Positions 13,587 to 48,399 of a stretch of DNA of 64,000 bases are shown here, one piece after another. Under the pieces are notes generated by a model. That model made no database searches. It had not been told where the DNA came from and saw only the letters and a program-made list of their open reading frames with translations. Position 1 is the first letter of the stretch. Every line of letters starts with the position of its first letter. The DNA is from Favolaschia claudopus (taxonomy: Eukaryota > Basidiomycota > Agaricomycetes > Agaricales > Mycenaceae). The stretch is taken from positions 558,001 through 622,000 of the forward strand of contig JAWWNJ010000081.1 in the NCBI GenBank assembly GCA_037176885.1. Reading direction: 5' to 3'. The position numbers and the translations under genes are program-made.

Positions 13587-16500
13587 ATGGGTACGTGGCT
13601 GGCTTATATTTGTAGTATAGAGTCTCACAGGTCGCCTTGGGCTGTTTTACAGCTCAAGTCACTCAGAACGCTGCCCTCACCATCGAGAACGCATTCAACA
13701 CTTTTCGCGTCAGCCCGCACACCCTATTCCTGGACTCCATGTCGGTGATCCAGTACCAGGCTGCAGCTGCTGAGGGACGTCACATCGTCCCTTACAAGCT
13801 TAAGCCCGAGGACTTCAGCTATCCAGCTGGACTTCGCCCGTTCTTCCCGCTCCACGCCTCGGAACTCGTTCGCGACTACCCGCTCAACGGCGCGGATGTC
13901 CACTGTCTGCAACTCTTCATCCACCCGGTTACTATCTGGCTACTCCCCTACGTCCGCGACGTCTATCGCTCTCACCAGACGAACCCCGACTGGCTAGCCT
14001 GGCTCCTTCAACATTTCGAACCAATTGCTGTGAGCATTCGCGAATGCTCATTTTCAGCGCTTTTTGCTGACTTCAACTTTTCAGCGACTGATCTCCCGTT
14101 ACTACGAGGCTTTTGACATCACAGATGTCTTCGACCAGCTGCTCGTCGCCATCCACAACATTGGGAGAATGTTCGAGAAGGCCTACCCCGGACGATGGAA
14201 GCAGCCTTATCGCATCCTTCCCATGTCCTTTGAGGGTCGGGACATTAGCAGGGTACGTCGTCCCTTATTCGTGACAGATCTCATATTGATAAAACTTCTT
14301 GGTTTTTCAGATTCTGCACCTCTCTTTGCAGTTCACCCTGCCCGGGATCATCGAGTTCGAGGACCACTTCCCTTGCACAGAGCTCGGGCCGACGTTCTAC
14401 GAAGAATCCTGTCTCCGCGATATCAACAACGAATACTTCGACCGTTTCATTCGTTACTGCGCCCTCGTCGCCTACCAAGGGGCTGAGGTTGAGGGCAAGT
14501 TCGACGAAGCTAGTGTCGCCAAAATCAAGCCTCTAATGGACCAAAGCGTCTTCCCTTTGGTGAGTTTCCATCCTCTTTCTGACCTTTCGTGATAGCTAAT
14601 GCTTCTCAATGTTTAGGCCAAATTGGATCAGGTCATCGGCAACATCGACAACCGCTCTTTCATCGACGCCATCCTCAACTCTGCTTGGACAGTCTGGTCC
14701 CTCATCCCTGAGAAGGATCGCAACCCTGGCTGGGAAGCCGCCCTGCCCGAAGCTCGTATCTGGGGCTATTCTCTCCCACAGAGATACCGTCTTCCTAGTG
14801 GCAAGAGGACTCGGCCGCCAAAATTCAGTCTCTGGCGCGACTGCTCGCATCGCGACTACGTTGCCGACGCCTGGTTCAAAGTCAACAACCTCCCTCTCCC
14901 CAGCGGCTCATTAGCGCGACCTCTCACGCCTCCGTCCTCTGAGTCTCGCTCGCCTACTCCCGAGGTCAAGCCTCCAGCGCTCTCTCGCTCGTCCAGCTTT
15001 GGCAGTGCTGGCCCCGCACTCGGTGGCCCCTCGCCCTCTAGCGTTGCCAAGTTCTTCAACTTTGGCGACGGATCCAGCAGCCCGGACCCTATCGCGATTG
15101 ATACTGCGACTGCTCCCACTGTAAGTCCTAAGTTTCTTTACTCAGTACTTTGCGCTGATTGTCCCTTCTTAGGACGTTCCCGCTCCTCAGACTCCCAGGG
15201 CTGGTTCATCCGCCCCCGTAGTCAGACTTCCAACTCCGCGTTCGGGCGCGTCGTCTGGTAGTGCCTTCGCCGCTGGATTTGCAGCTGGCGCAGCTTCGCG
15301 TGGTCCTGACGATGGACCTTCTGTGACTGGTGGCGAGGAGGGTCCAGACATTGGTATGGGCAACGACGACCCTTTCGTGATTGATGCCTCCGCCCCTGCG
15401 GGCACATCTCAGGTACTCTTTACCTATTCTTCCTTTCATTATTGGTCACTCATGCTTTTGTAGGACGATGCGACGCTTCCGACCCCTCAGGCTGGCTCGA
15501 CCGCGGCTATCGCGACAGATGCCCCACCTGCGTCTGGTCTTCGCCGAAGCCCGCGTGGTGCGTCCAAAGTAAGACTCTTGTCTTAACATTCGTTTCCCAA
15601 TTGCTAATGGTCTCTCTTTAGACCAATGATGAGCACGAGGAGGCAACGGCTGGTCCTACTGCCGACGAGTCGGACACCGAGTCCAATTCTCGTTCTTCCA
15701 AGCGCAAACGCGCTGAGGAAGAGTCGTTCAAGCCTGCTGGAGATGATGACCAGGATAGCGGTCTCTCCGACGGCGAATCCGAGGTCTCTCCGCCTCATAA
15801 ACGCTCGAAGAAGGGCAATCGCGATAGCGAGGAACCGTCGCCCTTGAAGGGTAAAAGCAAGAGCAAGGGCAAGAAGAAGGCTGACGAGTCTTCCCCTGGC
15901 CCCGCTGAGGTTCGGACCACTCGTGGTGCTTCGCAGGCTCACAAAGAAGACCCCTACGAGGTGGAAGGCTTTGAGCCGACCACGTTCGATATCCGCGCAG
16001 CGAAGGAAGGTCTTGGGATCCTCCCCAAGAGCTTCCAAGCTTCTCTCCTCAAGGGTACAAGCGTTTTGGTACGTCAATTGCTTTCCCTTTGCCTCATTCT
16101 TAACGATTGAGCATTCATGATAGCGTCTCCTGGGCTGCGGAAATTGTATGATTCGCAACCGCAAGTGCCGTCGCGAGAATGGCCATGCTCGCTGTGATGC
16201 CTGCGTCAAGAGCGGCATGTCTCGGTGCTCGGATATTTTCTCTATCCCCGAGTACCTTCAGGTCGTCAACTTCCTGGAGCCGCTTACGGTCTTCTCTGAC
16301 CAAAGTACGTTTCTCTTCAAATTGTTTTCCAACGCAACTCTAACTTCGTCAATGTAGGCTGGAACTCTGCCTTTAACGAGCTCCGCGACGCTCACTACTC
16401 CCAGATCCTCTGTGATCGGCAAGTGGCTATCGCGAATGCTCGCCTTCTCCGCGCGCGCGCCAACTTGCGTGCGCTTATGAACGGTTCCGAGGTGGCCTTC

Positions 16501-16881
16501 AAAGGCAAGGTCATTCCTGGGATCGATTCTGTTGCGGAGGAGGAGGTAGAGTTTTATACCAAACTCTTCAAGACCGCGCGTAAAGATTCCGAGCGCGAGT
16601 TTTACATGCCTGACGGCACTCGTGCTGACGAGTATTACGATGAATACGACTCGCAATACGAAGGCTCGCAGGGATCGGCGATGGACGAAGAGGAAGGCGA
16701 AGAGGTGCGGGTGATCGCGGTGGAGGATGCTGAGGCTCCCAGAGAGCCTTCTCCTATGCAGGAGGACGCTCCTGTCACTCGCGAGCCAGCCGCTGCAACT
16801 ATCTCCCTCGACGACGCCATTGCTGCAGATGAAGCTGGTCGCGACGAGTTTGTCGAAGGTTCCTCCGGAGGAGGAACTTGA
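13587..16881 (+). CDS. Cargo gene A: 932-aa six-cysteine cluster protein
   Basis: Ten exons fit in phase: 13587-13590, 13653-14029, 14085-14252, 14311-14559, 14617-15120, 15173-15412, 15464-15568, 15622-16068, 16124-16304 and 16358-16881. They give 932 aa without an internal stop. The first ~300 residues are a globular, aromatic-rich domain. A Pro/Ser/Ala-rich linker follows, then clusters of basic residues (SKRKRAEEE, HKRSKKG, KGKSKSKGKKK) that look nuclear. At about residues 702-732 is a cluster CGNC...C...CDAC...C with spacing CX2CX6CX8CX2CX7C, as in fungal Zn2Cys6 binuclear clusters. A helical region and an acidic tail end the protein. It lies antisense in Element 1, nearest the 3' LTR. 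The counterpart in Element 2 is gene I (943 aa, same place). The function is unknown; DNA binding is inferred only from the cluster. Confidence 0.8.
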
Positions 16882-17394
16882 TTTTTGTAAGTCCTTTCTT
16901 ACTTATTCCATATCTTAACTGACTCTTTCAGTTAGATGTTATATTATACACTACCAAGATGGACTTTTCGCTATTGCTCCGAATCGGACGAATGCGCGCG
17001 CGCTCCCAATTGCTTTGAACATTTGTATATCTCGAAATCTCTGTACATATCTCTCGATATTGTCGTACTTTGCTTGATTTCTTTGATATTGTCTTAGCTA
17101 TTGTTTCGGGACCTTACGATACATGGGCCTGATTTTGTATATTGCTATACCGCCCTTAATTGTATCGCTGCTGCCTCAAATGAGGCTTTTTCTCCATTCG
17201 CGAATGCTTAAATCCTAAGTCACCAGTCCTTTCTGATGCCTCATGCGCATTTATCGATTAAGGAAATTTTGTCGCGATTGCCTCGCTGTACGGACACCGT
17301 TCCGTCTTTCCCCAATAGTAAATAATCCAACTCTTTGGACCTATTTAAGCGCAATCATGAAAGTGTTTTCGTTGGCTCCCCAACTTTATTCTCC

Positions 17395-18198
17395 ATGTCG
17401 ACACGTCCCTTCGTTAGCCGTCATGGTCTCCCCGTTGTTCCTGTCCTTAAGGGGACTGCCTCTATGCACGAATTCCCTATCCTCACTCCGGACTCCGCCA
17501 GACGTCTTGGCAAGCACACGAGTGCAAATGAGTTACTCTCATCGGTACGGGTATTTTCTATCACGAAAGCTAGCCACTGCTAATACTCTCGATCTTAGAA
17601 CCCTGCGGTTGATTCCAATACCAATCCCATACTGCAGACTACCTGCGTGCAGTCTGGGACTTTCTATAAGTGGTCTCAACCTTGCACGGATTGCATGGTC
17701 GCTGGTACTGGTGCTACCTGCACTTTTACCCAACGTCTCAAGTTCGTGGAGGTCTTGGAGGCACGACGCGTCTTTGCCCAGGAGGTGATCTTTACCACCA
17801 ACTCCAATCCTGGTGCGTTTGCCTACTTCCTGACCTATCGCGATTGCTTACTTTCTTTCCCAGCCGAGGCTTATCGCGAGTGGGAAGTCCAGTTCTTCGC
17901 TGACTGTCAAGTGGCTTTCCACCTCTTTAACAAGAGCATCGCTCCTTTCGACAAACAGCGCTTTTCCATGCTGTCCCAAGTCGAGGCCATTCACGACTTT
18001 ACTCGTCTTAGCTACTTGCACATGCTCTTTGGCGTCTACGATTATCCTACTGATGTGAAGACACTTGTCATTCAGCGTATGCAGGGTATGCAGGAGGCTT
18101 TCGAGCTATCGGCTGTGGAGGACTGTATGGTCCAGGAGATAGTGCGACTAAGCTTGTACAGTAATTGTAGAGCTGGTAGTCCCTCTAGCTCTCAGTAG
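17395..18198 (+). CDS. Cargo gene B: small cysteine-cluster protein, cluster partly lost
   Basis: Exons 17395-17544, 17599-17812 and 17864-18198 (intron phases 0 and 1) give about 232 aa. Exon 2 holds CTDCMVAGTGATC, the second half of the six-cysteine cluster, and one upstream Cys. The first CX2C is absent, so only four of six ligands remain. The C-terminal AEAYREWEVQFFADCQVAFHLF matches AEAAQRLSFYFEARLVFHLL in gene H of Element 2. Three exons and the same phases are shared with genes H, K and J. The second intron is 51 nt, open when retained, and contains TATCGCGATTGCTTAC. Loss of the first half-cluster may change or abolish zinc binding. Confidence 0.72.
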
Positions 18199-18620
18199 TA
18201 TAAGATCGATTCCTCTCCACTTGTAGAGTCCCTTAGAGTAGTTCATAGCTCTTAGGAATCCATGTGTTTGTCAAGGAACGACCGAATTCTACTTCCTCAG
18301 TCAATCGCGAAAGCCATCTTTGCTTATTCCTATCGCTATCTCATCTTCGGATCGCTTGCGTCAAAAGACCAAGACAGACTGGTGCGGTTCTCTGTTCCAC
18401 TTCCTATTTCGGTAATTTTCCTGTTTCGGTCGTATTACGCTTTGATTCGCGAACACATGCGGCATCCTTATTCCGCTTATCCCGATCACAGTATTTCTTA
18501 TACCGATCAAAGTTTCCCTTTATATTTCTGAACTCCAGAGTCTATAGAAATCCTAAGTCCTTTTAGGATTCAACTCCGGCCGCTCATTCCGCTTATCCCG
18601 CAATCTATCACGATTGCTCC

Positions 18621-18662
18621 TACTCCTCCCCTTTTCATAAATTTTAACTGTCCCCAGTTAAA
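18621..18662 (-). repeat. Internal second copy of the PPT-hairpin module
   Basis: CTCCCCTTTTCATAAATT here is identical to 13191-13208 at the true polypurine tract. It is again followed by a perfect stem, TTTAACTG/CAGTTAAA around TCCC (GGGA in element sense), at 18643-18662. The stem bases differ from those at 13207-13224 but still pair. Confidence 0.75.
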
Positions 18663-18761
18663 CTCTTTATGACGGAGTCCATCCACTCGCCTAGCTATAA
18701 AGAGCTAGCCTTCTACACTCCTTACAGCAGTATCTTTTCTCAGTATCCCTTTCTCAAGAAC

Positions 18762-20271
18762 ATGGCTCGCTCTGGTCTCACTAAAGGTCAACACGACGTG
18801 ATCGTCGGTGTCGCAGACAGTGTTTCTGCGACCAAGTACCCCGACCGTGCTAAGCAGCGCACATTCCTCGACCAACAGACTGTTACTTTGGTGTGTTTTC
18901 ATATTTTAACGCTTTTCGCGAATGCTCATAGCGTTGTCAGGACTCGTTCTCTGGCCTTCTCGGCGAGATTGCGAAGGACAAGACTCTCTATGATGCTTTC
19001 TATAGCGTCAAAAACAGCTACCACCAGACTGCTGTCGGCTCCAACGGCGTCATTGGAGGTCGCTATCCTCTTATTCTCGAGTTGTGTGCTAAGATCAAGG
19101 CCGAGCGCGAGCTTCAACGAGGAAACACCGTAGCTTCTCAGCAAGCACACCGTACCGAACTCGAAGAGGCTCGTGCTCAGGCTGACGATCAAGAGAGCAA
19201 GAATTCGCGAAAGCCCCGCGCTCCTCGCGCTAAGGTAGTTCTCCTTATTCCTGCTTGTCTCGATTGCTCATTTACTCTGCCAGAAGGACAATAAAACTAA
19301 GAAGTCCAAGGCCACTATCGAAGATGGAGATGAATCTCCCTTCGACGACTCTGAGCTTCCTGGTTTTGTGGACGACGCCATGATTGTGGACGACTCCGTG
19401 CGTTTATCATTCATTATTGCTGTCATTAATTCTGACTTTGCAAATTTAGAACGACGCAAGTGCCTCTGGTCACCGGGCGACTCAGTCTCTTGACGAGCGC
19501 AACCCTGCGGTGAGTATTGACCTGTCACGATAGCTTCCTTCTCGCCACTTCCTCTTATTGCTGCCTCAGACTTCGCAGTCTGGGAGTACGCGTCCTTCTT
19601 CGGTACGCCTCTCGTTCCTTCGCATCAAGGGGATTGACCGAAACTCTGCTTCCTATATCAAGGCTATGGCCATTCTTGCCCGTACTGACCCAAGTTCAGC
19701 GTCAGCCATCGTCGTTGAAGACTTCCCCGTCCCACCACCACGGAAACGTGCACGTCCCTCACAGCCACTCGCGCATGAGGACTCAGTCGAGCAGTACGAT
19801 GGTGCGTTTAGCTTTCGCGATTGCTTCTAAGCCAGCTTCTGACTTATTTCCCAGCAACCGACTTATCAGTTAACAACCCAACAGTCCGCCAAACTGTTGC
19901 CGAAGCGCGGGACGCCGTCAAAAGCTCCACAGCCGATTCGATGGGCGCATTACGACTCCAAGAAGCAGAACTTCGCTCGCGAGTCGGCTTCGAGAATGCC
20001 CAACTCCGGTATCACCTTGATCACCGCGAGTACTTGCTCACCGATCTTCGACGCGTCCTCGATGCCCAGCATAAGCGGGAACAGGTACTACCCACCGGTA
20101 ATGCCTAACTACCCTCTTTCGTGAGCAGCTTCCCTTTTTCCCGAAAGGGTGCTAACCCCTTTCTTAACAGAACCGGACGCGAGTTGCAGAACTCCCTCAA
20201 CTGCGGAGGTCCACCTTCCACTCTCTGCCCTTATTGTTCTGTTAATTACCACTCTCCTCGTCATTGCTTTT
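18762..20271 (+). CDS. Cargo gene C: coiled-coil protein with C-terminal CCHC knuckle
   Basis: Exons 18762-18890, 18941-19234, 19284-19397, 19450-19509, 19570-19801, 19855-20097 and 20171-20271 give about 390 aa. I chose ATG 18762 over the in-frame ATG 18669 because exon 1 is then 129 nt, exactly as in gene G of Element 2, with the same phase-0 intron. The N-terminal domain (VADSVSATKY... AKDKTLYDAFYSVKNSYHQ) aligns with G (LVKYSPPESRKNQ... EDKSAVLREAIFTSREYYHS). A Ser/Asp-rich middle, a basic patch (PPRKRARPSQ) and a long helix (RLQEAELRSRVGFENAQLR) follow. The last exon, reached through a donor at 20098, ends in CPYCSVNYHSPRHC, a CX2CX4HX4C zinc knuckle absent from G. Without that splice the frame stops at 20108. 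Confidence 0.72.
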
Positions 20272-20332
20272 AGAGTCTACACTTCCGCTCATTAGCCGTA
20301 TACCCCGACCAACTCTTTTCAGTCGTTACAGC

Positions 20333-21096
20333 CTATCGCGAATGCCAACTAGTATTCTCCTTAGAATATTTCGCTACACTCCTTTCAATGTGACTCTGTG
20401 TTTTTGCCTTTGACTCTTGTGGAACTCCTCTTTTGTTCCGTGCTGAGTCTAAGCCCAGAGCTTCTTCGCTCTCTTCATCATCTGAGTCCGACATGTTCTC
20501 ATTACTATCGGCGCCTTTCACGATTGCTCCAGGCTTTTTCAGATGAACTTCGTTCAACTGCAGACCCGTTCCAACGAACGGATCTTCTTTTGAGTCTTTT
20601 TCAATTGGGCCTTCTAACATCTCTCTCGATAATTCAATCGAGTCGAATTTTTTTTTTGATGGCCAACTCGACTCTTTTGTTTTGGTGCTGCTCGAGCAGT
20701 ACAACTCTAAATTGAGCTGTCCAGCTTTTACAGCTTTTGACCCGCCCTCCTCACATAGAAGAAGGTGCGGTTTTGTGTGTTGATACAACCGAGGGAGAGT
20801 CTAGAGGACTGGTGTGTTCCTTTTCGACTTCCTTTTAGATGGTAGATTGTGCGCTCTTGTTCGACAGAGTATTCGTGATAGCTATTTGCTTTCCCTTTGT
20901 ACGCTGTAACCCGTTCCTTGGCTTTGGCTCGAGATTGTGATCTCCCTGCCTCAGCAGGACTACGCTTTTTCTTCCTAGGAAGAGGATCTAAGTCTGATGG
21001 TGTGGATAACCGACTAGACCGGCGTGGTTTAGGTTTCGCGAATGATGTGGAAGCAAGTTCGCCATCCGCAGATATTTCTGACGAGTCTGGTTGCAC
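20333..21096 (-). CDS. Element 1 sense-strand ORF(s), unrecognised
   Basis: Just inside the primer-binding site, the sense strand has an ATG at 21096. It opens a basic, Ser/Lys-rich frame with likely nuclear signals (KPKPRRSSR, LPRKKKRS) to 20728. A second overlapping frame continues to 20333 (charged, NMSDSDDEESEEALGLDS). An intron or one frameshift could join them, but no splice pair was convincing. This is the gag position, yet no zinc knuckle or capsid similarity is visible. It may be a degenerate gag leader or noncoding. Confidence 0.35.
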
Positions 21097-21261
21097 CGAA
21101 ATGTTGACCTAAGTCAACGGCGCTTTTAACGAATAATTCGTTCTTCTCGGATGTAAGTCCAAGGTATAATCCTGTATAGGAAGGTAGAGATATTTCTATA
21201 CGCAACAAGTCCAAACTTGGCTCGAGATTTCTACTTTGAAGTATAGAAATAGATGGATGAA

Positions 21262-21280
21262 CCCCTCGCGGTGGGCTCCA
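21262..21280 (-). other. Primer-binding site of Element 1
   Basis: On the minus strand TGGAGCCCACCGCGAGGGG begins 2 nt (TC) after the 5' LTR end. It is identical over 19 nt, with the same 2-nt spacer, to the site of Element 2 at 32318-32336. Confidence 0.92.
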
Positions 21281-21282
21281 GA

Positions 21283-22613
21283 TGAAACGCTGACTATAGG
21301 GCAACTATGGAAAACACCCAAGAAATGAAAGGAATTAAATCCCTAATCAAATCTTAAATATAATCCTAAACCACTATGAGATCGACGTGCGAGGTTCGGG
21401 GTTCCAGTCCAGTATAGACTGTGGCAATCCAACTATTCTAAACACTCAAAATATACTAACTTAAGCTTTCGCAATTGCTGACTTTGTACAGAGAACGTCT
21501 ATACGAGTCCTATGTTGACACAGGAAGTGTGGGTTTCAACAAGGGTTTGAGATGTAACTCTTCTCAAGAGGTTTAGGTGTTTAAGTCGCTTGTTAAGCCA
21601 ATATATTCCACGCGTAAGATGTCCGATAACTGTTTCACGCGTCCCGTAGGTCAAAAGTTCTTATAATTCCACGCGTAAGTTCCCAAAATTTCCAATATTC
21701 CACGCGTACAATTCAAGATATGATCCAACAGACAATATATATTGACGAAACAAACCAAAGAAACAAATAAGCTTCTGGAGTTTATCTCGAATGGAGTCCA
21801 ACTTCTAGTTGTTCACGAAGCCGACACTGGCTTGACGCTCACAGCTAGAGGAGGGAATCCACTGGAGTACCAGTACAGGAAACGATGCCTTTTATACCTT
21901 TCACTAATAAATAATAAGAGACCGAACAGTTGACAAACGGGTATAATGTGAGAGAAACTAGGGCCCGCTATGCCCTCGCCCTATCCTTGGTGGCCAGAAC
22001 AGGGAATAGATCAAAGGTTCATTCAATCCAAGTCCTTATCCCGATCATTATGTTATGACAGTGGGCCGCAGCGGCCCAATCAATATGGCCCAACTTGGCA
22101 GTAATACCCTTGGTATCATTGTCCCTCTTCGGACCTTGCTCCGTGATCGTAATACGGCGGCAGCCAACTCGGCATGACGTGTAGTTCCTTTGTAGGAATA
22201 TTCTACTTCCGCAAATCCCTCGCAATTGGTTTATAGAATTATTCGTGAAAGCCTCTTGCCTCCAGGAAACACTCCTTCTGGCCTTTCGGCAGGTTCTTAT
22301 AAGTCCCAAGTTATATCCCACTCATTCTGCCTTTGGTCAGAACACAGGGTGACTCCCAATCCTATTCCGGATGGTTAGAGACCTATCGTGATAGGTCTGT
22401 TCTGGAATATTATAACTTCCACGCTATACCAGCGCAGTCGTAGACAGTGCCAGACCTCCCACTTAGTGTATAATCCTTTAACTGGCCGTTCAGGCAAACG
22501 CCAGTCCTCATACGAGCGTATTCCCGTGGTATTTAATGTATTACTCTTTTAATACAATAGCACTTGAACTGAAAATGAATAAATTCAGCCCTGGCCCAAT
22601 ACCGGGTCTATCA
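21283..22613 (-). repeat. 5' LTR of Element 1
   Basis: 1331 bp, nearly identical to 11859-13189, in the same orientation, and adjacent to the primer-binding site. It carries the ACGCGT cluster at 21610-21707. Confidence 0.92.
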
Positions 22614-32317: not shown

Positions 32318-32336
32318 TGGAGCCCACCGCGAGGGG
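32318..32336 (+). other. Primer-binding site of Element 2
   Basis: TGGAGCCCACCGCGAGGGG lies 2 nt after the 5' LTR and is identical to the site of Element 1. Confidence 0.93.
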
Positions 32337-32857
32337 TGACAGATTATTTGTGTCAAGTCGAAAGAAATCACTTGTGGACGCTGCTTTTAAAACTAGCACG
32401 AACCATCCGCCGGTTGACTCGAGAATAGAATATACACCCGCCCGTTGAGCCGATAGCTCCAGGCCCGCTATAGAAGATTTTGCCATTTAGTTTCGGAAGA
32501 GACGTGGCTTCAGAAGGACGATCCGCTAGAGCACCACCACCAAAACCTCGGTCGACCAACACTAGCCTACGTGCCGCTGCCGCTGCTCTCGAACTCGAGA
32601 CTGACGATCCTTCCCGCCCGCCTGTTGCTCTTGCCCGGGAACTCTATTCTCTGCGCGGACGAACCCAAGCTCACGCTTATCGTACCCGCCAAACCCAGTC
32701 GTTGAGCCCCTCTGCTCCGCTGGAACAACAAACCTCAACTCAACCGCCCGGCACAAGACCTGTTACGCCCGACGGTGCAGCTACCCAGTCGTCAACGACT
32801 CTTTCGTCTGTCTCTTCACCACTACTCAACACTTCACCAACCCCTTCAAACAATCCG

Positions 32858-34411: not shown

Positions 34412-34489
34412 AGAGTTCGAGGAAGGGGGCCAAGGGGAAACCCACTGCGGATAAGCCCCCGGAGAACCGACAAGCACGCCCGCCCGCAG
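34398..34489 (+). other. Candidate alternative intron joining gag to pol
   Basis: GTGAGC at 34398 and CGCCCGCAG ending at 34489 define a 92-nt intron that contains the gag stop. Splicing leaves phase 1 (GAA G) and resumes with GA AAG AAA ATG in the protease frame. Seen in sequence; use of the intron is unproven. Confidence 0.45.
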
Positions 34490-34497
34490 GAAAGAAA

Positions 34498-38039: not shown

Positions 38040-38099
38040 ACAGGCGTGGGCTTATACCCGCCTTAGTAAGGAATACAGTTTTCGAAGGTCTTCTCTCAG

Positions 38100-39748
38100 T
38101 CAAAGGGGGACGACAAGCCAGCAGGCGAGCCGCTGATCCCTGACCTCGAATTGAAGTACGACCCGACGAAGCGGGAACCGTATTCTGAAGACCAACGATC
38201 GGTAGCGGCGAAGCTAGCGGACGAGCGGCTGCTCCTCATGAAGGAATGGCGGCGAAACACCCTGGCTCGCCCGGATGGCATGAACGACAAAGAGTATAAA
38301 GCTTCTTGCGATTCGCCACCGGCTTCTTCGAGGATGCAGATGGAAAACTCTATCATAAATCCACAACGGGGAGCGCACATCAGTTGGTGGTAGACAAAGA
38401 ACACCGAATGTATATGATGCGAGCGGCTCATGATAGCCTAGCTCATCGCGGCGTCTTTGCTACCAAATCCTTGATAGAAATGCGCTTCTGGTGGCCTGAG
38501 ATGGAGCGGGATGTCACTTGGTACATTAAGACTTGCGAATTGTGTCAATTGAGGCAAAGGACTCTATTAAAGATCCCGCCCGTTGTCACTCATACCCCTT
38601 CGCTCTTCCAAGTGGTACACGTCGACGTGATGGTCGTTGGTACTCCTTCCAACGGCTTCAATAAAATTGTCGACGCCCGCTGCTCTCTCAGCAGCTACAT
38701 AGAAGCGCGGCCGATAAAGAACGAGAATGCCAGAACGCTGGCCTTGTTCTTACTTGAAGATGTGATTTGTAGGTGGGGTTGCCCGGAGGAACTGGTGACA
38801 GATAATGCGCCGGCCTTCCTAGCGGCCGTGGCCTACCTCGAGTCTAAATACGGCATAAGAAATATTAGAGTTTCGCCGTATAATTCTCAAGCCAACGGGA
38901 AAGTCGAAAATGGGCACTTCTCGATGAGGCAATCCTTATGGAAAGCCACTGGCGGGAATCCCAGCAAGTGGTACTGGTTCTTCCCGCAGATGTTGTGGGC
39001 TGACCGGGTCACTATTCGACGAGGAACGGGCTGTTCACCCTACTTTATGGTAACGGGCGCACATCCAATCCTCCCGCTGGATATAGAAGAAGCGACTTGG
39101 CTAGTGCATCTGCCCGGCAGGACTCTAACGACCGCTGAATTAATCGGCTATCGAGCCCAGGCTCTGGCTAAGCACGCCACTCACGTCGAACAGATGAGGG
39201 AACGGGTCACCGACGAGAAACGAGCGAATCTGCGCCGGTACGAGATAGCGCATAAACATACTATCGAAGATTACCATTTCGAGCCGGGAGACTTGGTGCT
39301 CATCAGGAATACGACCGTTGAGAAATCGCTGAATACGAAGATGGCCGCCAGATACCTGGGACCAGTAATTATCATCCGGCGTACGAAAGGTGGAAGTTAT
39401 ATCGTAGCGGAGATGGACGGCTCTGTCTTTCAATCGAAGATTGCTCAGTTCAGAGTGGTCCCCTTCGAGCAGCGGCGCTCTATCAAGCTGCCCGCTGACA
39501 TTCACGACTTAATCGACCTCTCGGCAGAGACGCTAGAAAAGATGGTCCAGGAGGAAGACGGTTATTCTGGAGATGACTTCCAATTCGGGAATGTGAGGTT
39601 AACCCCCAGCGGGACGGCTGACGAAGAGCCGGCTCTGCAGGAGGCCTTGCCCGAGGAAGAAGAAGAGGAAGAGGAACCTGACACGGATGAGCCGCTGCCT
39701 TTCAAACGGAAGACTCGTTCTGCCACGAAAGCCGCTGCGCGGAAATGA
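38100..39748 (+). CDS. pol: Pol segment 3: integrase, with one frame break
   Basis: From 38100 (after an acceptor CTCTCAG) a frame encodes LKYDPTKREPYSEDQRS to about 38297. Homology then continues in the -1 frame from 38306 to a stop at 39748. The integrase has an HHCC zinc domain (HDSLAHRG...CELCQ), the DDE triad (VVHVDVMVVG, LVTDNAPAF, NSQANGKVENGH) and a C-terminal GPVIIIRRTKGGSYIV domain. It ends in an acidic run and basic tail (FKRKTRSATKAAARK). The RT and integrase frames are separated by TGA 38037 and TAG 38064. An intron 37980-38099 would remove both. The remaining break near 38300 looks like a one-base deletion or -1 shift. Confidence 0.85.
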
Positions 39749-39970
39749 ATTACTGCTACGATATCTACGTTACATTTTGAAACGGGATTCGAAGTCCTTG
39801 AGTAATTGTATTGTCTGCATCTCCCGCCAGTGCGCTGCGAACAGGTTGCGCACCCGGGGAGTGTGTGGCGGCCAGCAGAAGGATGAGCCGTGAGGTGTCC
39901 GAAACGATTGAGCCAGTACCGAGGATTCTGAAGAAAGGGGGACCCGCTGGGGGAGCTCTTTAGGAACGAG

Positions 39971-41211
39971 TCAGGGAACATGAGCATCGACGCCGGCAGA
40001 GGAGGACTCGGGGAAGTCGCGAAGGCGAGCCGAGATCTTCTCTCCTTCGTCGAGGAGCTGCTCGCGCCGGGCCAGAGAGCTACGAAGGTTCTCGTGGATG
40101 ACCGCCAGCTCGACCATGATGAAATACATCCGCTTGCGCAAGGCAAGGTGGTTGCTCATGAACTCGGTACCCATCTCGACGACGCTAGCGGCCTCATCGA
40201 CAACAGCACCTGAAGCGGGTGCCGAAGCGTAAAACTCAGCCGTTGCTGTAATAACATTCAGCGGGAAACCACTGACAATGGACGGGAAACTCACCGTTGG
40301 TGAGGAAGGAGTCCTCGTGGAACGGGACGTTGTCGATGCGAGCGCGCTTGTTGCCTTTGCCCTTCTTAGCGGGGGCTGGGCTATGCTGAAAGATTGAAAT
40401 GAATGACAGAAGCTAAAGCAGAAATAACGTGCAACTTACAGCGCGCGCACCCTTCTTGCCCGCCATGGCTGATTTAGCCTTGGGACCGGTAGGGGGAGCC
40501 TTGGGAGCGGGGAGATGCTCATCGTCAACGAGCATCTGGGTGAACAAACACCCAACGGCGATGATAGAAGTGTCAATCGTCAGCTCTACACAGGCCAGCT
40601 GTTAAACGAAAGAACGAACCTCGTCAGCACCAAGGGTGGTGAGAGCGGGCGATGGGGCACGAACGGTGCCTTCGTCCTCGTCCTCAGACTCAGGTTCACC
40701 CTGGGACCGCCCGCGAGTACTCTTCTAGCGGGGGATGATTGTGAGTCAATGGTGAGCACGACAATAAAAGTTAGTGAAACCGACCCGGGTCCCCTTGGAA
40801 GAAGAAACGGTGGAGACGGGCGGGATCGCCTTCTTGGAACGGTCTTCGTGAATGGCCTTGGTGATCCGCCGCAGGGCATCGTACCCAGCGGGGAAGGTCA
40901 CGTCCCGTTTACCATCCGGGTCGTACAAGGAGTGGTAATATTCACGCGAGGTGAAGATTGCCTCACGAAGAACCGCGCTCTTGTCTTCCAAAATGAAAGG
41001 CATGAGCGGGGGAAGGCGCGCCTACGAACGAAAGAATAATGTTAACAAAACGAGACTGGTCAATGTAGCCGGCGGCTCTTACGAGAATCTCGGCGACGTC
41101 CTTGAGCTGGTTTTTACGAGACTCGGGCGGCGAATACTTGACGAGGTTGGCGGCAACGTCCATAGCCTTGAGGAAATCGGCTTTGACGGTGTTGTAATCG
41201 TTTTGAGACAT
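39971..41211 (-). CDS. Cargo gene G: 310-aa coiled-coil protein, counterpart of gene C
   Basis: Six exons (41083-41211, 40785-41021, 40620-40724, 40440-40535, 40295-40385 and 39971-40245) join in phase to 310 aa. Exon 1 is 129 nt with a phase-0 intron, identical to gene C in Element 1. The N-terminal domain carries LVKYSPPESRKNQLKDVAEIL and EDKSAVLREAIFTSREYYHSLYD. A Ser/Glu/Asp-rich middle, a Lys-rich patch (KKGKGNKRARIDN) and a long amphipathic helix (SNHLALRKRMYFIMVELAVIHENLR) follow. There is no zinc knuckle. The gene is antisense to Element 2 and ends 220 bp from the integrase stop, convergent with pol. Two introns contain AGCGGG. The family is unknown. Confidence 0.78.
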
Positions 41212-41632
41212 TTTGGAGGAAGCAGAGTAAAGACAGTAGACGAGGCTGGGGGGTATATCCTGTCCGCCCGCTGCTTCTTATACTCGAGCGGCCGTAATTA
41301 ACGCCGTAAGGATAATTTGGACGAAATTTGGTCAACGGCCGAACTTGGATTACCATTTATGGTAGATGCACCCGCCGGTGGCGCAGAAAATTATTTCAAA
41401 CGCACCCGATCGTTCCGTGGCACGAAAATTTGCTGCCGGGGAACCTGAATTTCCTCTGATCGATCAACTGAGGACAGTTGAGATTTCTGAAAGGGGGAGA
41501 GGTGGGTCACCTAGCACGTCATTTGAGGGCAGCGGGCACATCTTTACCAAGAAATAAATGTTTCCAAGGCCTCACATGGGGCGGGAGCGTGTGTTATCGG
41601 AACGAACTATCCGAAAGTACATGTGCCTGTAT

Positions 41633-42261
41633 CTACACTGCCCGCATCCTAGCCGGAAGATCCAGGAAAAGATTATTGGCGAGAACGTCTAACCGCTCGC
41701 GGATAACAGCAACATACGCAGCCGGGAGATTAGCCGTTTTGGCCTCCTGAAGAAGATGGAAAACCAAGCGGGCCTCGAAGTAAAAAGACAGCCGTTGGGC
41801 TGCCTCTGCGACGTTCCGCCCGACGATTACAGAATGGTATTGTTGCCAGAATGGGAACTGCGCCAGGGTCCCCTCATGAAGGACGTCCCAAGCAGCTAGC
41901 TGTTCCTTCGTAGCCGCTAGAAGCGAGCGGGGAATCAGTTGTGGCGCAACAGATGAGAAAGAAGTCGTCACTTACGATCGGGACCCTCTTTGAAACGGTG
42001 CCGGCGGGCAGCAATTTCATCGGCCAGCTCAGCGGTCTGGGTGTACGAGCAGTTGTGCTTCAGCAAGTAACAGCGGGTGCACGGCGCTCCCCACTCAGTA
42101 AACTCGCAATGAGAACGGGCGTTGAGGCACGCAGAGCATACCCGGCCAGGCTGCCGAATGATGAGGAATTACCCGAGGCAAAATGTTCAGGAACGTACAT
42201 AGTACTCCCTGAGCGGGCCGACGGGGTCATTCGGGAAGAGTGGATGTTCCAGCAAAGACAT
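41633..42261 (-). CDS. Cargo gene H: small six-cysteine cluster protein (173 aa)
   Basis: Exons 42199-42261, 41976-42150 and 41633-41916 (intron phases 0 and 1) give 173 aa. Exon 2 encodes residues 26-55 with CSACLNARSHC, EFTEWGAP and CTRCYLLKHNC: spacing CX2CX6CX8CX2CX6C, as in Zn2Cys6 clusters. Exon 3 is a helical domain (AEAAQRLSFYFEARLVFHLL) matching gene B of Element 1. It is the first of three tandem paralogues H, K and J with the same three-exon plan. Intron 2 holds GAGCGGGG. DNA binding is inferred from the cluster. Confidence 0.78.
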
Positions 42262-42542
42262 GAGTAGACGACTGAAGCAAATGGGACCTTCCCGCCAGCT
42301 TAAATATCTCTCTGAGACCTGGCGGGAGACCCAAAAACAGAGATCGACAGCGGGACTCATTGCACCCGATGCTCCCGGAAGATCCGCAATACATGTGGAA
42401 TATCCAACGAGGTGCTGAGCTCCCGCTGGGCAAAAACACGAGGAAGCTTTGGTTTCTAAGAAGCCTTCCTAATCGGGCAGCTTGAAACAGAGTTTTAAAG
42501 ATGCAAGTTCGTTTGACAGTGGGAATATATTTCCTACTACGC

Positions 42543-43213
42543 TTACGGCCCGATGAACATGACGGGCGGGAGCCTTGCGCCGGACTGGAGGGCTACAGCG
42601 TCTAACCTATCCCGGAGGAGATCTACAATTTCCTTTCGTACGCCCGCCCCCTTCGCGTCAAACCACAGTCCGTACAAGAAGCGTAGCTGGCCAAACCCAA
42701 GGGTGCCGAGCATGGACCTGGCGGCGAGGATGGTGCAAGTACGCACGTCAATGTATCTCTTCTCGTCGAGCCGGGCACCGGCAGCCCGGGCGTACCAGTC
42801 AAACTGAGCGATCCGTCCGGCGGAGGGAGCTAAAATTCACTAAGACCCCCGCTGGAGGTATAAAGATAGAAAGCAGACTTACCTGGCCGAGAGGCTAGGA
42901 GAGTGTCGCGACGACGGCTGTTCTCGGCCTGCCAGACGGACTTCTTAGTGTAGCAGCACAAGGCGGCGCGGCCTATGAACATGCAGCTGAGGCAGGCTTC
43001 ACCCCACTGAATCCAGATGCAATGGCGGTAGTTCTTGAGGCAGCACTGGCATTCGTACTCCGGCTAAGAAGAGGCACCCGTCAGCGGGAGAGCACCAGGA
43101 AAGAACGAAAGACCCACAAACTGAGCTTGAAGTACGAGCTGGTACTCTGAGGGACCGGTGAAGCTCCTAAAGCGTTCTGAGTAAAAAGTCGCTGCCAAAG
43201 AAAAGGCGGGCAT
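42543..43213 (-). CDS. Cargo gene K: small six-cysteine cluster protein (187 aa)
   Basis: Exons 43118-43213, 42883-43063 and 42543-42829 (phases 0 and 1) give 187 aa. Residues 37-68 carry the cluster (CQCCLKNYRHC, IWIQWGEA, CLSCMFIGRAALC), spacing CX2CX6CX8CX2CX8C. The Trp-Gly pair before the fourth Cys is shared with H and J. The C-terminal helical domain (AQFDWYARAAG, LGTLGFGQLRFLYGLWFDAKG) resembles the others only loosely. The first-exon donor is GTGGGT. Both introns contain the AGCGGG motif in one orientation. The gene is tandem to H (280 bp) and J (170 bp). Confidence 0.75.
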
Positions 43214-43385
43214 CGCTCGAAGGACTCACTGGGCACCGGCCGCTATAAGTAAAACCTATAGCCGACGGGTGAGTACCACCGGCTGCCGGACCAAAAGCTC
43301 AGAAGGAATCAGACATCACGATAACGGCTTGCGACCGGGCAAAGAGATTTATTTGACCCTAACGGGGAAAAGCTACTAGCCTGGG

Positions 43386-44128
43386 TTACCGCTCGAAGGT
43401 CTGGCGGCGCGTGCCTTGGGCCAAGGGCACGACGGTCGGAACATTAGAGTCCCGTCGCCTGATATCATGGAGCAGGATAGCTGCGTCGACGTCGCACTGG
43501 GCATGGATCGAGCGATCCTGGGTACGCCACTCGCGTAAAACTCGAGATAGGATGTTGTAGAAATACAGCCGCCGGCTGGAGTGAGCGGCGTGGTTTAGGT
43601 CGTGAGCAATGTCCCAGTCACGAAGGTCGCCAGCAAATTCCTCCCGCCGACGCAAGAAGTCAGCGGGCTCACCGTCCACCGAGCCTATAAACATATCGGG
43701 GCTCAAGCCGCCGAGGCGCAAGTGGTACCAGAGTTCGAGGAATGCAAGGTCGTATAAAGTGCCGCCTGAATGGAATAAGAAAGATGAGGATTTGAAGAGC
43801 GGCAGGACCTACCGCTGCGATAGATGAAAAGTGTCGGAAAGGCTGAAGATGGGTAGGTATACTTGAACCAATCCACCCCGGCGAACAAGCATTTGGGGAC
43901 CTTCGCCTCCCGGCACCTAGTGCACTTAGAGCCCCAGTGAAGAAATTCACAATCTTCGCCGGCGTCACTACAAGGCGTGCAGACGAGATTCGGCTAGCGG
44001 CTGGTTGGACTTGGCGCAGAAGTGTGTTGAGGACAGCCTACCACAGTATAGATCTTGCGCACAAAGTCTTGACTGACCACCGGGAAGAAATGGTAGTCGA
44101 TTAAGACTTCACCTATGGGCTGGGGCAT
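43386..44128 (-). CDS. Cargo gene J: small six-cysteine cluster protein (215 aa)
   Basis: Exons 44042-44128, 43813-43993 and 43386-43765 (phases 0 and 1) give 215 aa. Exon 2 has the same length (181 nt) as in gene K. It holds the cluster at residues 34-64 (CTPCSDAGEDC, EFLHWGSK, CTRCREAKVPKC), spacing CX2CX6CX8CX2CX7C. Exon 3 is Arg/Asp-rich and helical (FLRRREEFAGDLRDWDIAHD). Shared exon plan, phases and cluster show that H, K and J arose by tandem duplication. No stop or frameshift is seen. Confidence 0.76.
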
Positions 44129-44899
44129 GACGATTGAAGGAAAAAGATGGTTTGATTGGCTATCTACCCCTATCGACTATACAAGTACGGTAGCGGGCAG
44201 CTCGGGCCGCCGTGCCAGTCCTACTCTACGTTATCACTCTTACGAGACCAGCGGGAGAAATGAGGAACTAGCCACCCGGTGGAGTCCGAGGGCAGCCGCT
44301 GATAGCTGGATGAGATGCCGCGGGCAATCCCCGCCATCTGATGACCCCGGTGATAAGCACCCTTGCCGCTCGGCATGTTGAAAAACTCGAAGGGTTCACT
44401 GTCAAGCTCGCTCACTAAGTTCTACTCAGCTGGCGGGCGAGGCACTTGGCCAGAATCGCTCGCTTCAGACTCTTACAAGAGGCTCTAGCCGGGAATTCTG
44501 ACTTGGAACTTAAATTGAACTTAAAAGTTTTTCACACTAGGAAGAGCATCGTAAAGAATTTTTATTTTCATCGGCTCTTTGGCCGGCACAAGATGCTATT
44601 TACTATGGGGCATTTAATTTTTATTTGGGGGTCATGGCGGGTGGAATTCCACCAGGCCATGACCGTTTGCAACCAGCGGGGTTATGGGACCCGTGCCCGT
44701 AGTTTTTGATGATTTTTGGGGGCCGCTCGGCCCCCGCGATTATGAATACAGAAATATTTCTGAAGAAAGAAGTCAGTGGAAGCTGGGTACAGCGGGAAAA
44801 CTGGGCAAGTGCTTACTTGCCGCCCGCCCACCCACGAGGAAAGTCTGAAGTTGAGGGTTAGCAGAGGAATGAAGAAAGGTTCAAGTCGAACTTACCGGC

Positions 44900-47800
44900 T
44901 CACGCGTAATCGTCGAAGTCGAAGATGTGGGCATGGACGGTATCGTCCAGCTCACCCGCTGCGTCGACATCTTCGATTTCCCCGGCCTCGACCGACATGG
45001 CATCCGACGCGTCGGGGTCGTCCAGCTGCTCTTGAACGCTGTCGGCGACCTCCTCTTCGCTGCCGTCTTCGCCCGATTCCTCGCCGCTGGATACCTCCTC
45101 GAAAGCAAAAGCTTGAGCTAAGAAGTCCTCCTCGTACAGGTCGGGTGCACCCACCTCGGCTTCCTCCCCGTCGCTGGCGTAGTCGTCGGCGGCTGGCTCT
45201 ACTGCGCGGCCTTTGCCTTTGGATTGAGCTCTTGGCTCAGGCGTTGGCGGGCGGGAACCAAGGTCCATCGCTGTAGCGGGAGAAACGAACTTAGGATTGG
45301 TAAAGAAGATAAGAAAGATAGGAGGACTTACGATCGCGTGGGCCGTCGTCGGCCGACTCCTCCTCAGTTGGAGAAGGGGGCGGGCGGAACTCGTCCTCGG
45401 GAGCGTCCTCGTCGTCGTGCACCACCGGATCAGACTTGACCTTCGACTTCTTCGAATTTCCTGTGTTTCGGCGCGAGCGGGAAGGTTTAGGTTTCTTAAC
45501 CTCCGACTCGTCGGGCAACACGGTAAATTTCCCCCGGGCGTACAATTCGCGGAAGAAGCCGGGCACATTCTGGTGCTTCGCGCTGTACGGGGTGGGATTC
45601 CCATTGAAGTCGAGCGGGTCCAAGTCCTCGGGACCTTCGCCGCTAGCCTGAACGCGAGCTCGAACTAACGAGCCGTCTGGACCGGTCGCTGAGCTTACAA
45701 CGCCCTCCTCGTCGAACAGGAGGTGGAAGCAGTCTTCCGGCTACCAGAAGAATTCAGTGCGAGCGGGAATGAAAACTTAGAAAGAATTTCTTACCTCGAC
45801 CTCCACCCATTGCGGCGGGCGTACGTCGTCCGGGTCGGAGGGGATCAAGAAAAATCCCAGCGGCGCAGCCCGCTCGTTCGCATCGTAAGCCTTGTAAAAG
45901 TTGTACGCGGTGTCGAAGATCGGGATGTCCGCTTCATCCAACAGGGCCATGGGGAAGAATTGCCAGGCGCGAACCTCATTGATGTCCGAGCCGGCGTGAA
46001 GCCCTTGGGTCATGGCAATCCTGAGCATGAGTTCCATGTGCTTCTGTTTCTCCTCGTAGGTCTCGCCGTCGAAACGAGCGACGAAGTCGTCGAAGTTGAC
46101 TTGGCCGCGGGTGACCAGGATAGCGTGAAGCATCTTGAACATCTTCCGGCGCAGTTGAACATAGGCGGCCTCGAGCGAGTTCTGGATGGCGAAGACCGTC
46201 GCGCTGGCCTGATTGACGTCCTCGTTCAAATCGTGCCATTCTGTTGAACTGGTTAGCGGGCGAGAAATAAATATGAAAGAAGTATGACTTACCCGGGCGG
46301 GTCATGAAGACCCATTCCTTGAGCTCGGTGCCCATGAGGCTCAACTCCTCGCCGGTAGCCAAAAATGTGCAGTCCTTCTTGGACTTTTGGCTTGCGCAGG
46401 CAGTGCACTCAGAAGGGAAGCCGACGACTCTGCATTCCGAACCGTTGTGAATGCAACGGATGCAGCGGGGACCGTACTATGTCAGGGTGGTCAGTACGAG
46501 GTGTCACCCGATGAGTTCAACTTCACCTGGGCTTGAAAGAGCTCCATCGTCGAGACGAAGCCGTCGGAGCTCAACGCAAAGAGACCCGTCTCGGGGTCGA
46601 TTGGGAGGTCCAGGCGTCTCGCTGGGTGAGGGTACCCGGTGAGGAACTTTCTGAAGAGTTCCTTGCTGGGAATGTTGAACTCCTCCTTCGACTTCTTGAT
46701 GGTCGGTGGGCTCTGCGGGAAGTCAGTCTCGCCGGGAGAAATTCGATAGACAGAAATTGCGCCGCTCACCGGGTTGATTCCCAGATTCCTGAGAATCATC
46801 CTATGGGAATAATCGGGCACGATGTACCGCAGCGAAGGAACTTCGTCGATGGTGACGTCTTCGTGCGGGTCCCGGGGAGCTGGCTTTGAAGTCGAAGCCT
46901 TGGCGGTCTGCGGGGGTTTCGTTGTGATTACTAGAAAGACAGTTAGCGGCTCGATCGTACTTGAGAAATCTAAAGGAGTTCACTCACGGACGATCGGCTT
47001 CTTGGAGGCTTTCACCTCGGATTCGGAAATGTATTCGATGGGGGGGGTCTATGAAAAATTTATAGTTAACTCTATGTCGGCCTTACACTTGGGACAACAG
47101 CGAGTAACTACTACCTCCTGCCTAGCGGGCGGTTTCCCCTTCTCCTCCTTGATTTTCTTCGCCGGCGAAGTCTCGGCGTTGGTGGATGCTTTGCGTTTTG
47201 AGCCGCTGGCAGCGGCGAGAGGCGAGTCGGCGGGGACGGTTACTTTGCGCTTGATGACTTGGACTCGGTTAGAACCCTCGGAGGCGGGCTGGTCGGTCTA
47301 ATAGAAGGCAAGGTGGTTTAGCGGGGAAACTAGATAGAAGAAAAATGGGCTTACGAGCTTCTTGAATTTCGGGAGCGGCTTCTGTTCCCGCTGTTTGGCC
47401 TCGTCCTAAACGAACGAGAGTCAGCAAAGGGAAGGGAGGCCAACGGGAAGGATTACCTTAGCCGGCGCAACCGGCTTGCTGGGCTGCTCAGAGTCAGCAG
47501 CAGGCTTACCGCCGCCCTTGCCCGAGTTGGATGAGCCGGCGGCGGCTTTGTCGCGACCCTTCGGCTTGTCGCCAGCGGGGTTCGACAACTTGCCTGCTGC
47601 AGAGGCGGAGCCGGTCCCCTTCTTTGAAAGTATGAGTCTCGATTAGGAAGAGGACACTACGGGTCGTCACTTACCGAGGACTTGAGTGGTCTGAACTCCT
47701 CCGGCCTCAACGGCGGCGGGCGGGAAGGGAGGGTGAAATTGGCCACCTCCTTCGTCGGCTCGGGGGGCCGCGCGAGCTGAATGATCAAGTCAGTCGGTAG

Positions 47801-48399
47801 CCGGCGAAAGAAATAAGAGGAAGACGACTTGCCTTTAACTTTTCCATCTCGGGCTTGCTCAAAGCCAGACCCCAAAGCTCTGGGTGGTCGTGTCGCGGAT
47901 CGATGCGTTTGAGCTGCCGGCCGAGATAGTAGGATAGGGCGGTTGCGTAGGGAGGAACAGACTCTTCGCTCCCCCGGGCAAAGTTGAGGCCCGCCCGGTG
48001 AATTCTCTATTAAGAATTCTTCAGGAAAGACGAATACGAGAAGATGTAGCGGGGACTTACCAGTTCGCTATCCAGACTGCGTATCAGATTCTCGACTTCG
48101 TGGGGCTTCATCTGGTCCGCAACGCCGGGGGTGATGAGCTTCTTCACCGCTTTGAACTTGTTGGGCTTGTCCCGCCAGGCGGACCAGAAGTCGATTCGCT
48201 CGGTCAAGTTGACCGGCGACTGCTTGACCTTGGCCTTGGAGGAAGAAGCCGCCGATGGTACAGCAGCGGGAGTCCTCGACGGGGCAGGAGTGGAGATTGA
48301 AGGCGAAGCCGCCCGGGTAGACGCCTTAGAGGCACGAGAACCAGGACGAGCAGCCGATGCAGACGGGCGGGGGCGGGGAGTCTTCTTGTCGTCTTCCAT
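44900..48399 (-). CDS. Cargo gene I: 943-aa six-cysteine cluster protein, counterpart of gene A
   Basis: Thirteen exons join in phase: 48061-48399, 47833-48006, 47675-47776, 47457-47621, 47355-47405, 47115-47297, 46988-47048, 46770-46930, 46527-46712, 46293-46476, 45795-46240, 45332-45740 and 44900-45270. They give 943 aa, close to the 932 aa of gene A. The N-terminus is Ser/Pro/Arg-rich, then Lys-rich low-complexity blocks with likely nuclear signals. The cluster at residues 479-510 (CIRCIHNGSEC, CTACASQKSKKDC) has spacing CX2CX6CX8CX2CX8C. A helical domain follows (WHDLNEDVNQASATVFAIQNS), which aligns with the region after the cluster in A. The tail is very acidic. Intron 2 has a GC donor (AAG|GCAAGT). 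Five introns contain AGCGGG. The gene is antisense to Element 2, next to the 3' LTR, the same place as gene A. Confidence 0.8.

Follow-up and report, generated by a model that had tools for sequence, protein, structure and literature searches.

The DNA considered here, hereafter the window, is a 64,000-nucleotide stretch of the genome of the basidiomycete Favolaschia claudopus (G000:C81:558001-622000) that contains two long terminal repeat (LTR) retrotransposons, Element 1 (E1) and Element 2 (E2). Each carries intron-bearing genes antisense to the element (A, B, and C in E1; I, H, K, J, and G in E2; Table 1), several of which encode a cysteine cluster that likely resembles the Zn2Cys6 DNA-binding domain of fungal transcription factors, and each is strewn with a short motif of its own. 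It is probable, at roughly 0.6, that an antisense-encoded, predicted Zn2Cys6 protein binds the dispersed motif of its own family, keeping that family open for transcription. The first-pass annotation of this DNA had held that the antisense genes must serve the elements; such service can fairly be inferred, and the family motifs, which go beyond what that annotation had described, now provide the concrete link. Copies outside the window were compared within the host genome (264.6 Mb), in which family counts are lower bounds.

The motifs stand out from all other words of their length. TCGCGA ranks first of 1996 six-nucleotide words (6-mers) in E1, with 24 occurrences against 1.86 expected, and AGCGGG ranks first of 2061 in E2, with 80 against 12.4. 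The E1 sites extend to about C-Y-W-W-TCGCGA-W-W-GC-Y; the pattern [AT]TCGCGA[AT][ATG]GC is found six times in E1 introns (0.01 expected), three times in intergenic DNA (0.01), twice in one LTR (0.00), and five times in exons, compared with 0.22 under synonymous shuffling, and is absent from the nine other parts of the window tested. AGCGGG is in excess in the non-coding DNA of E2 (LTR, 14 vs 1.45; introns, 10 vs 0.36; intergenic DNA, 13 vs 2.25) as well as in its coding DNA (antisense exons, 19 vs 6.8; gag-pol, 24 vs 5.5); in each compartment none of 300 shuffles reaches the observed number. To the right of E2, 10 of 16 AGCGGG sites lie within fragments resembling the E2 LTR. A chance origin of the motifs is excluded by the dinucleotide and synonymous shuffles together with the ranking of all 6-mers. 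The E2 motif is present on both strands (51 and 29 sites), which favours recognition of DNA rather than RNA.

Motifs of this kind recur in other families with antisense cysteine-cluster genes. The pieces compared (numbered with an L) are stretches of the host genome, 20 of them located downstream of a reverse transcriptase (RT) and drawn from 150 RT matches listed, with four more added afterwards; the sample of LTR families is small. A Zn2Cys6 pattern is present in three of the first 20 RT pieces (L010, L016, and L027), always antisense; a relaxed form of the pattern matches neither strand of 21 of the 24 RT pieces and only the antisense strand of the other three. In L015 and L032 there are relatives that look damaged. 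In untrimmed pieces of 10 kb, CGGASTC occurs 33 times in L010, 31 in L015, and 37 in L016, compared with 0-9 times in 18 control pieces (RT pieces other than those of the L010 and L027 families; L019, a 2.1-kb relative of the E2 LTR, is excluded), and GCCGGA occurs 43 times in L027 and 44 in L032, compared with 1-28 times in the same controls. The single intron of the L010 antisense gene contains the family motif CGGACTC; the intron of the L027 gene contains CGTCCGG, another enriched word of that family. Between L010 and L027, pol is 60% identical over 924 aa, and in each it is enriched for the family's own motif relative to synonymous shuffling (12 vs 3.3 in L010, maximum of 300 shuffles 9; 17 vs 4.7 in L027, maximum 11). 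A motif excess over codon choice in coding DNA is found in the E1, E2, L010, and L027 families.

Two further pieces, L036 and L037, one from each of two additional related families, were picked by integrase alone, before looking, and in both a Zn2Cys6-like match on the antisense strand is accompanied by a strong motif: L036 pairs an A-type gene with TCGCGA (15 vs 1.5 expected), and L037 has a J-like match with one wider spacing together with CCGCGG (15 vs 1.44 expected; CCGCGG is counted rather than CCGCGGA, in which palindromic sites are doubled). Since the L036 piece has the A-type gene and TCGCGA with no B or C match, A is indicated as the motif-linked gene. CCGCGG is also the motif of L034, with no detectable DNA similarity between L034 and L037. 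The Zn exon of L034 is 39% identical to that of E1, and the sites of the two differ symmetrically, both in TTTCGCGAATGCT of E1 compared with TTTCCGCGGATGCT of L034 and in TTTCCGCGGATGCTC of L034, which corresponds to TTTCGCGAATGCTC of E1. A dispersed motif, of one of five types, is present in all six family groups in which an antisense Zn gene was found.

The cysteine clusters would link these genes to a known class of DNA-binding proteins. Zn2Cys6 domains contain six cysteines with the consensus CX2CX6CX5-12CX2CX6-8C, and this spacing fits A, I, H, J, and K; B, like its relatives, has four of the six cysteines. In all six cysteine proteins the cluster exon is preceded by a phase-0 intron and followed by a phase-1 intron, as deduced from exon lengths. 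Nine of the 11 PDB matches to a profile of the exons (A1) are Zn2Cys6 factors, the best with an E-value of 0.11. An AlphaFold2 model of the J exon (confidence score pLDDT 74) gives 24 PDB matches, all of them Zn2Cys6 DNA-binding domains and all weak (best E 0.26). The A exon model is weaker (mean pLDDT 62); 15 of its 19 matches are Zn2Cys6 and four are ribosomal, the former number including CBF3, which we take to belong to this class because its Cep3 subunit is a Zn2Cys6 protein. The best E-values of the fold matches across the two models are 0.25-0.26. The cysteine-cluster exons therefore likely resemble the fungal Zn2Cys6 fold, and DNA binding is predicted; for the remaining parts of the eight proteins there is no Pfam match above a cut-off. 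CGG is the usual half site of Zn2Cys6 proteins, and it is contained in the motifs of five of the six family groups (E2, L034, L037, L010, and L027). In this respect, and in cysteine spacing and predicted fold, the antisense proteins are like Gal4, Leu3, Put3, and Hap1; they differ from these factors in being encoded by retrotransposons and in having Zn exons that score under the Pfam cut-off.

All eight gene models, whose exon edges were set by hand, run intact from ATG to stop with short GT-AG introns (there is a single GC-AG exception, in I), so the first-pass annotation was right that the exons chain in phase without stops and that the genes are antisense in both elements: A, B, and C are on the plus strand of a minus-strand element, and I, H, K, J, and G on the minus strand of a plus-strand element. 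Its exon counts hold for every gene given in Table 1 except C, which has six exons where seven had been counted. Splice dinucleotides are conserved at 18 of 18 sites in L033, 15 of 16 in L035, and 14 of 16 in L034; one C intron in each of the latter two pieces fell in an alignment gap and is not counted. In protein searches A finds nothing, I finds one protein (P0001, 93% over 711 aa), and a profile of H, J, K, and B finds three (P0002-P0004, which B matches at 69-87%). All four are annotated proteins of Favolaschia claudopus and are likely other copies.

The arrangement of the genes is retained across the genome. At least 94 integrase loci belong to the E2 family at an identity of 84% or higher. 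Among the matches listed, all 76 integrase-G pairs are antisense, with G downstream within 5 kb (18 of 94 integrases have no G); J lies within 6 kb of 80 integrases, antisense in 79 cases and on the same strand in one; and G or J lies within 6 kb of 86 of the 94, with 85 of these 86 antisense. A further set in the same comparison has nine of nine pairs antisense. Two related families that carry pol give 26 pairs of integrase and A-type Zn exon (integrase places grouped by hand), every one of them antisense, and among the matches listed for the L010 family an RT lies within about 3 kb of seven of nine Zn places, in all seven on the opposite strand, the pairing having been compared by eye. Order and strand of A, B, and C are the same in three further pieces, L033, L034, and L035. 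Also among the matches listed, the A Zn exon has 61 in the genome, none interrupted by a stop, and the B exon has 114.

Ratios of nonsynonymous to synonymous divergence (dN/dS) are well below 1: 0.06-0.10 for A, 0.17-0.28 for B, and 0.12-0.22 for C overall, measured between E1 and its relatives L033 (A 0.06-0.08, B 0.26-0.28), L035 (A 0.09-0.10, B 0.17-0.24, C 0.15-0.22), and L034 (C 0.12). All three genes are under purifying selection. In other families the antisense gene gives a ratio of 0.35-0.67 between L010 and L016 and 0.35-0.44 between L027 and L032; values for L015 (0.34-0.69) are dropped because its pieces are in different frames, and its pol comparison is unreliable and not used. The first-pass annotation had named random orientation and dN/dS near 1 as grounds for refuting it; neither is seen here, and its claim of a stable, heritable module is supported. 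That host genes were captured by chance and persist as passengers is very improbable given that the module is found in many copies and six family groups with its orientation fixed, that selection is purifying, and that protein searches gave four Favolaschia claudopus proteins only, likely other copies.

Three side observations concern the history of these genes. L010:4666-10000 and L016:4700-10000 are 97% alike overall, with synonymous divergence (dS) of 0.14-0.23 in the antisense gene compared with 0.015-0.016 in pol, as if the antisense gene had been exchanged or were evolving faster. Between L033 and E1, coding dS of A and B is 0.43-0.74, yet intergenic DNA is 92% identical, a mosaic that suggests recombination between families. 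An L010-type Zn domain is found at five more places (G000:C1 twice, C12:488705, C125, and C235; 56% over 35 residues, E 0.0095), perhaps representing a further family.

Several results weigh against the reading that the antisense proteins bind the family motifs. L033, L035, and L036 align to E1 at 88-95% (L036 over 4163 of 6000 bp at 88%), so that the TCGCGA they share is mostly due to common descent. The L037 match has CX2CX8C where Zn2Cys6 has CX2CX6C, and no A-type gene lies in the piece compared; the L015 antisense gene is split over different frames, and that of L032 is without one cluster cysteine. The Pfam family Zn_clus (PF00172, cut-off 21 bits) matches A at 12.4 bits (E 0.18) and J at 14.1 bits (E 0.053), both below the cut-off, and a search with it lists no match in I, H, K, or B; Foldseek gives no match at E 0.001 for the J or A model. 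Conservation at non-coding motif positions exceeds that at the remaining positions only slightly between E1 and L033 (0.95 vs 0.90) and not at all between E1 and L035 (0.94 vs 0.94) or E1 and L034 (0.45 vs 0.48). Tandem Repeats Finder detects no tandem array in E1 or E2; targets of VANC, an Arabidopsis protein considered below, are often tandem. Counting occupied 500-bp bins sets E1 and E2 clearly apart from other pieces; the L010 family is hardly set apart and scores below L025, and the L027 family does not stand out; this test is partly blurred in that L027- and L010-family pieces run past the element ends.

The two gene sets are also less alike than had been claimed. The description of them as the same set stands for B with H, J, and K, whose similarity score is reached by none of 300 shuffles (within E2, BLAST gives E 9e-11 for J-K and 1e-9 for H-J). 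Between A and I the similarity is weak (12 of 300), and the description does not stand for C with G, the sequence similarity of which is not significant (27 of 300); C and G have in common only six exons and identical intron phases. Profiles likewise left A-I and C-G homology weak or not significant.

Controls and cross-enrichment bear on a different explanation, that a host factor binds the motif, or that the motif reflects a compositional, codon, or splice-site habit of each family, and that the antisense proteins act otherwise, for example in particle assembly or RNA packaging. Three of 18 controls (L018, L025, and L026) have a 6-mer at log10 p < -10; these three are among 15 loci tested in one set, and none of L029-L031 is positive. 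Their sites are periodic or in part clustered: those of L025 recur every 1.05 kb, L018 has 14 of its 15 sites within 1 kb, and L026 has 11 of its 25 CGACCC sites within 130 bp. Raised densities of GCCGGA are seen as well in the L010 family (3.1-3.5 per kb), including the pol of L010 (14 vs 6.6, shuffle maximum 14), and in L028 (2.8 per kb; 58% GC); the per-kb figures for L010, L015, L016, L027, and L032 refer to the part judged to be element, from the first motif sites on, which flatters the contrast. No Zn gene was found in L018, L025, L026, or L028, which fits a host factor or habit, as does the E2 intron motif, often CCCGCT beside a branch-site-like CTRAY. The synonymous-shuffle controls in coding DNA argue the other way, as do the presence of the motif in intergenic DNA and LTRs and on both strands, the change of motif type with family group, and the fit of L036 and L037. 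Both orientations and the intergenic sites also counter branch-site context as the source of the motif, and we judge this explanation unlikely.

The elements themselves are of two kinds. The claim that both are LTR retrotransposons is sustained by the LTR pairs and the shared primer-binding sequence, whose position beside the 5' LTRs places E1 on the minus and E2 on the plus strand; it needs the qualification that the interior of E1 is without a gag-pol match. Seven gag, protease, RT, integrase, and pol queries have no match there at E 0.01, and all seven match the interior of E2. E1 is accordingly a non-autonomous LTR element, with an LTR pair and primer-binding sequence and no gag-pol; CCGT at both flanks is a likely target-site duplication. 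E2 has the LTRs, primer-binding sequence, and protease-RT-RNase H-integrase order of a Ty3/Gypsy element, with Pfam matches for protease, RNase H, and the integrase zinc-binding domain and an RT score of 29.0 bits, just under the cut-off of 29.6. In the window copy RT and integrase are in separate frames; many other copies have one open 1417-aa frame around integrase. Both are recent elements, with LTR identities of 99.7% (E1) and 99.4% (E2). Despite the latter value, and unlike E1, E2 has no matching target-site duplication at its flanks; this locus has perhaps recombined. A second repeated word, ACGCGT, occurs eight times in the two E1 LTRs compared with 11 times elsewhere in the window, often as TTCCACGCGT. 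Genes resembling B are found at C132 and C162, each with an RT on the other strand about 6 kb away.

Table 1. Features of the two elements, with positions in the window.
Feature	Position	Strand	Basis or detail
E1, LTR element without gag-pol match	11859..22613	-	LTR pair and primer-binding sequence
E1 3' LTR	11859-13189		99.7% identity to 5' LTR over 1331 bp
E1 5' LTR	21283-22613		99.7% identity to 3' LTR over 1331 bp
E1 primer-binding sequence	21264..21280	-	TGGAGCCCACCGCGAGG; identical in E2
E1 motif field	13190..22613	both/unspecified	37 sites TCGYGA/TCACGA in introns, intergenic DNA, exons, LTR
Gene A, 932 aa, 10 exons	13587..16881	+ (antisense to E1)	Zn2Cys6-like exon 9 at 16124-16304 (CGNCMIRNRKCRRENGHARCDACVKSGMSRC)
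Gene B, 232 aa, 3 exons	17395..18198	+ (antisense to E1)	four conserved cysteines
Gene C, 391 aa, 6 exons	18669..20108	+ (antisense to E1)	gene model
E2, Ty3/Gypsy-type element with own gag-pol	30501..50921	+	LTRs, primer-binding sequence, Pfam matches
E2 LTRs	30501-32315 and 49108-50921		99.4% identity over 1815 bp
E2 primer-binding sequence	32318..32334	+	TGGAGCCCACCGCGAGG; same as E1
E2 gag, protease, RT-RNase H, integrase frames	32474..39748	+	Pfam, open reading frames (ORFs)
E2 motif field	30501..49107	both/unspecified	80 AGCGGG sites (51 plus, 29 minus) in LTR, introns, intergenic DNA, antisense exons, gag-pol
Gene G, 310 aa, 6 exons	39971..41211	- (antisense to E2)	gene model
Gene J, 173 aa, 3 exons	41633..42261	- (antisense to E2)	Zn2Cys6-like exon 41976-42150
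Gene K, 187 aa, 3 exons	42543..43213	- (antisense to E2)	Zn2Cys6-like exon 42883-43063
Gene H, 215 aa, 3 exons	43386..44128	- (antisense to E2)	Zn2Cys6-like exon 43813-43993
Gene I, 943 aa, 13 exons	44900..48399	- (antisense to E2)	Zn2Cys6-like exon 46293-46476

Other features lie elsewhere in the window. A gag-like fragment on the plus strand (9369-10957), with the same primer-binding sequence near 9378 and a match to E2 gag (E 7e-10), is apparently a third, truncated element. Between E1 and E2 (22614-30500) are a KDZ transposase fragment on the minus strand (23500-24531, Pfam KDZ E 1.9e-52) and a plus-strand ORF (27829-28902) that has no Pfam match at E 0.01 and that, judged by eye, we take to resemble a TET/JBP-type dioxygenase. 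To the right of E2, a 2.1-kb stretch is duplicated at 87% (50926-53020 and 60067-62177) around E2-LTR-like fragments at 58077-59604.

If the antisense proteins do read the family motifs, the reader would be the large one, namely A in E1, I in E2, and the single antisense protein in the L010 and L027 pieces, because the L036 fragment has an A-type gene and TCGCGA with no B or C match. Binding at many sites along the element would remove or prevent silencing, or activate the LTR, and mainly the element's own family would benefit, as with VANC in Arabidopsis. Antisense placement would allow such genes to have introns and promoters of their own, as introns in the sense direction would be removed from the RNA intermediate. 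E1 would be a non-autonomous passenger that retains reader and motif while its replication machinery is borrowed.

The same anatomy of reader and dispersed motif also fits repression, in which antisense Zn2Cys6 proteins would bind the motif and act as brakes or limit copy number, and the E2 family, with its at least 94 integrase loci, would offer many targets. Antisense regulators of retroviruses can act in this way. HBZ, a bZIP protein of the animal retrovirus HTLV-1 for which we know of no dispersed family motif, is an antisense-encoded regulator of a retroelement. Its localization to the nucleus is described in one source (PMC11963269). Near-identical LTRs and a large family indicate recent activity, and that E1 has kept the genes with no gag-pol match of its own is more easily explained by help to the element; neither point is decisive, and we consider a brake improbable.

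The proposed anti-silencing role is an analogy to the VANC proteins of the VANDAL (MULE) transposons of Arabidopsis, which, in the accessible portions of two reports, bind DNA sequence-specifically and counteract silencing (PMC5735166; PMC10398659). As described in those portions, VANC is likewise element-encoded with sequence-specific DNA binding (here predicted), and its short motif is amplified in introns, intergenic, and terminal regions and differs between related elements. The families here likewise concentrate a short motif of their own in the non-coding DNA of the element, and also have it in coding DNA. The systems differ in that VANDALs are plant DNA transposons with motifs often in tandem arrays, whereas the motifs here are dispersed and belong to fungal LTR retrotransposons with antisense, intron-bearing genes and a Zn2Cys6-like domain.

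Plant Retand LTR retrotransposons, as far as the available text describes them, have antisense ORFs with a TRP28 domain, predicted DNA binding, and family-specific tandem arrays; their antisense coding region lies between pol and the 3' LTR, is kept across families, and occurs in some non-autonomous elements (PMC11963269). Most E2-family copies likewise carry antisense coding sequence in this position. A Pfam search of the eight proteins up to E 10, in which the HMMER filters drop most matches above about 0.1, does not list TRP28 (PF04195). Retand differs further in host and in its tandem arrays, the available text notes no family-specific binding motif, and the word 'intron' is absent from the main text (PMC11963269). 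TET/JBP genes, believed to counteract silencing, are carried by some DNA transposons of fungi; these genes encode an enzyme, not a sequence reader, and no retrotransposon with such genes was found, according to the part of the source available (PMC12730594). The earlier statement that no fungal system like this has been described agrees with the literature searched, in which no retrotransposon of a fungus combining antisense genes for DNA-binding proteins with family motifs was found, most subscription papers lying outside its scope; it is tempered by the antisense accessory ORFs of plant LTR elements, as given in the available text (PMC11963269).

The families taken together may represent an independently evolved reader-and-address system of fungal retrotransposons, in which motifs and antisense Zn2Cys6 proteins co-evolve and each family would recognise, and lift silencing from, only itself, a proposal to which we give even odds. 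The shift from CGA-type to CGG-type palindromes between E1 and L034 would be an example of such co-evolution. Sequence-specific counter-silencing by mobile elements is, to our knowledge, known from one plant DNA-transposon group. If the reading is true, it would have evolved more than once and with a different protein fold, and the elements would hold the first sequence-specific self-recognition system in retrotransposons as well as an arms-race record of Zn2Cys6 DNA specificity within one genome, a natural series of protein-motif pairs for studying changes in that specificity. It would also explain the persistence of antisense, intron-bearing genes in retroelements; the purpose of antisense ORFs in LTR retrotransposons, a long-standing question, becomes directly testable by binding assays.

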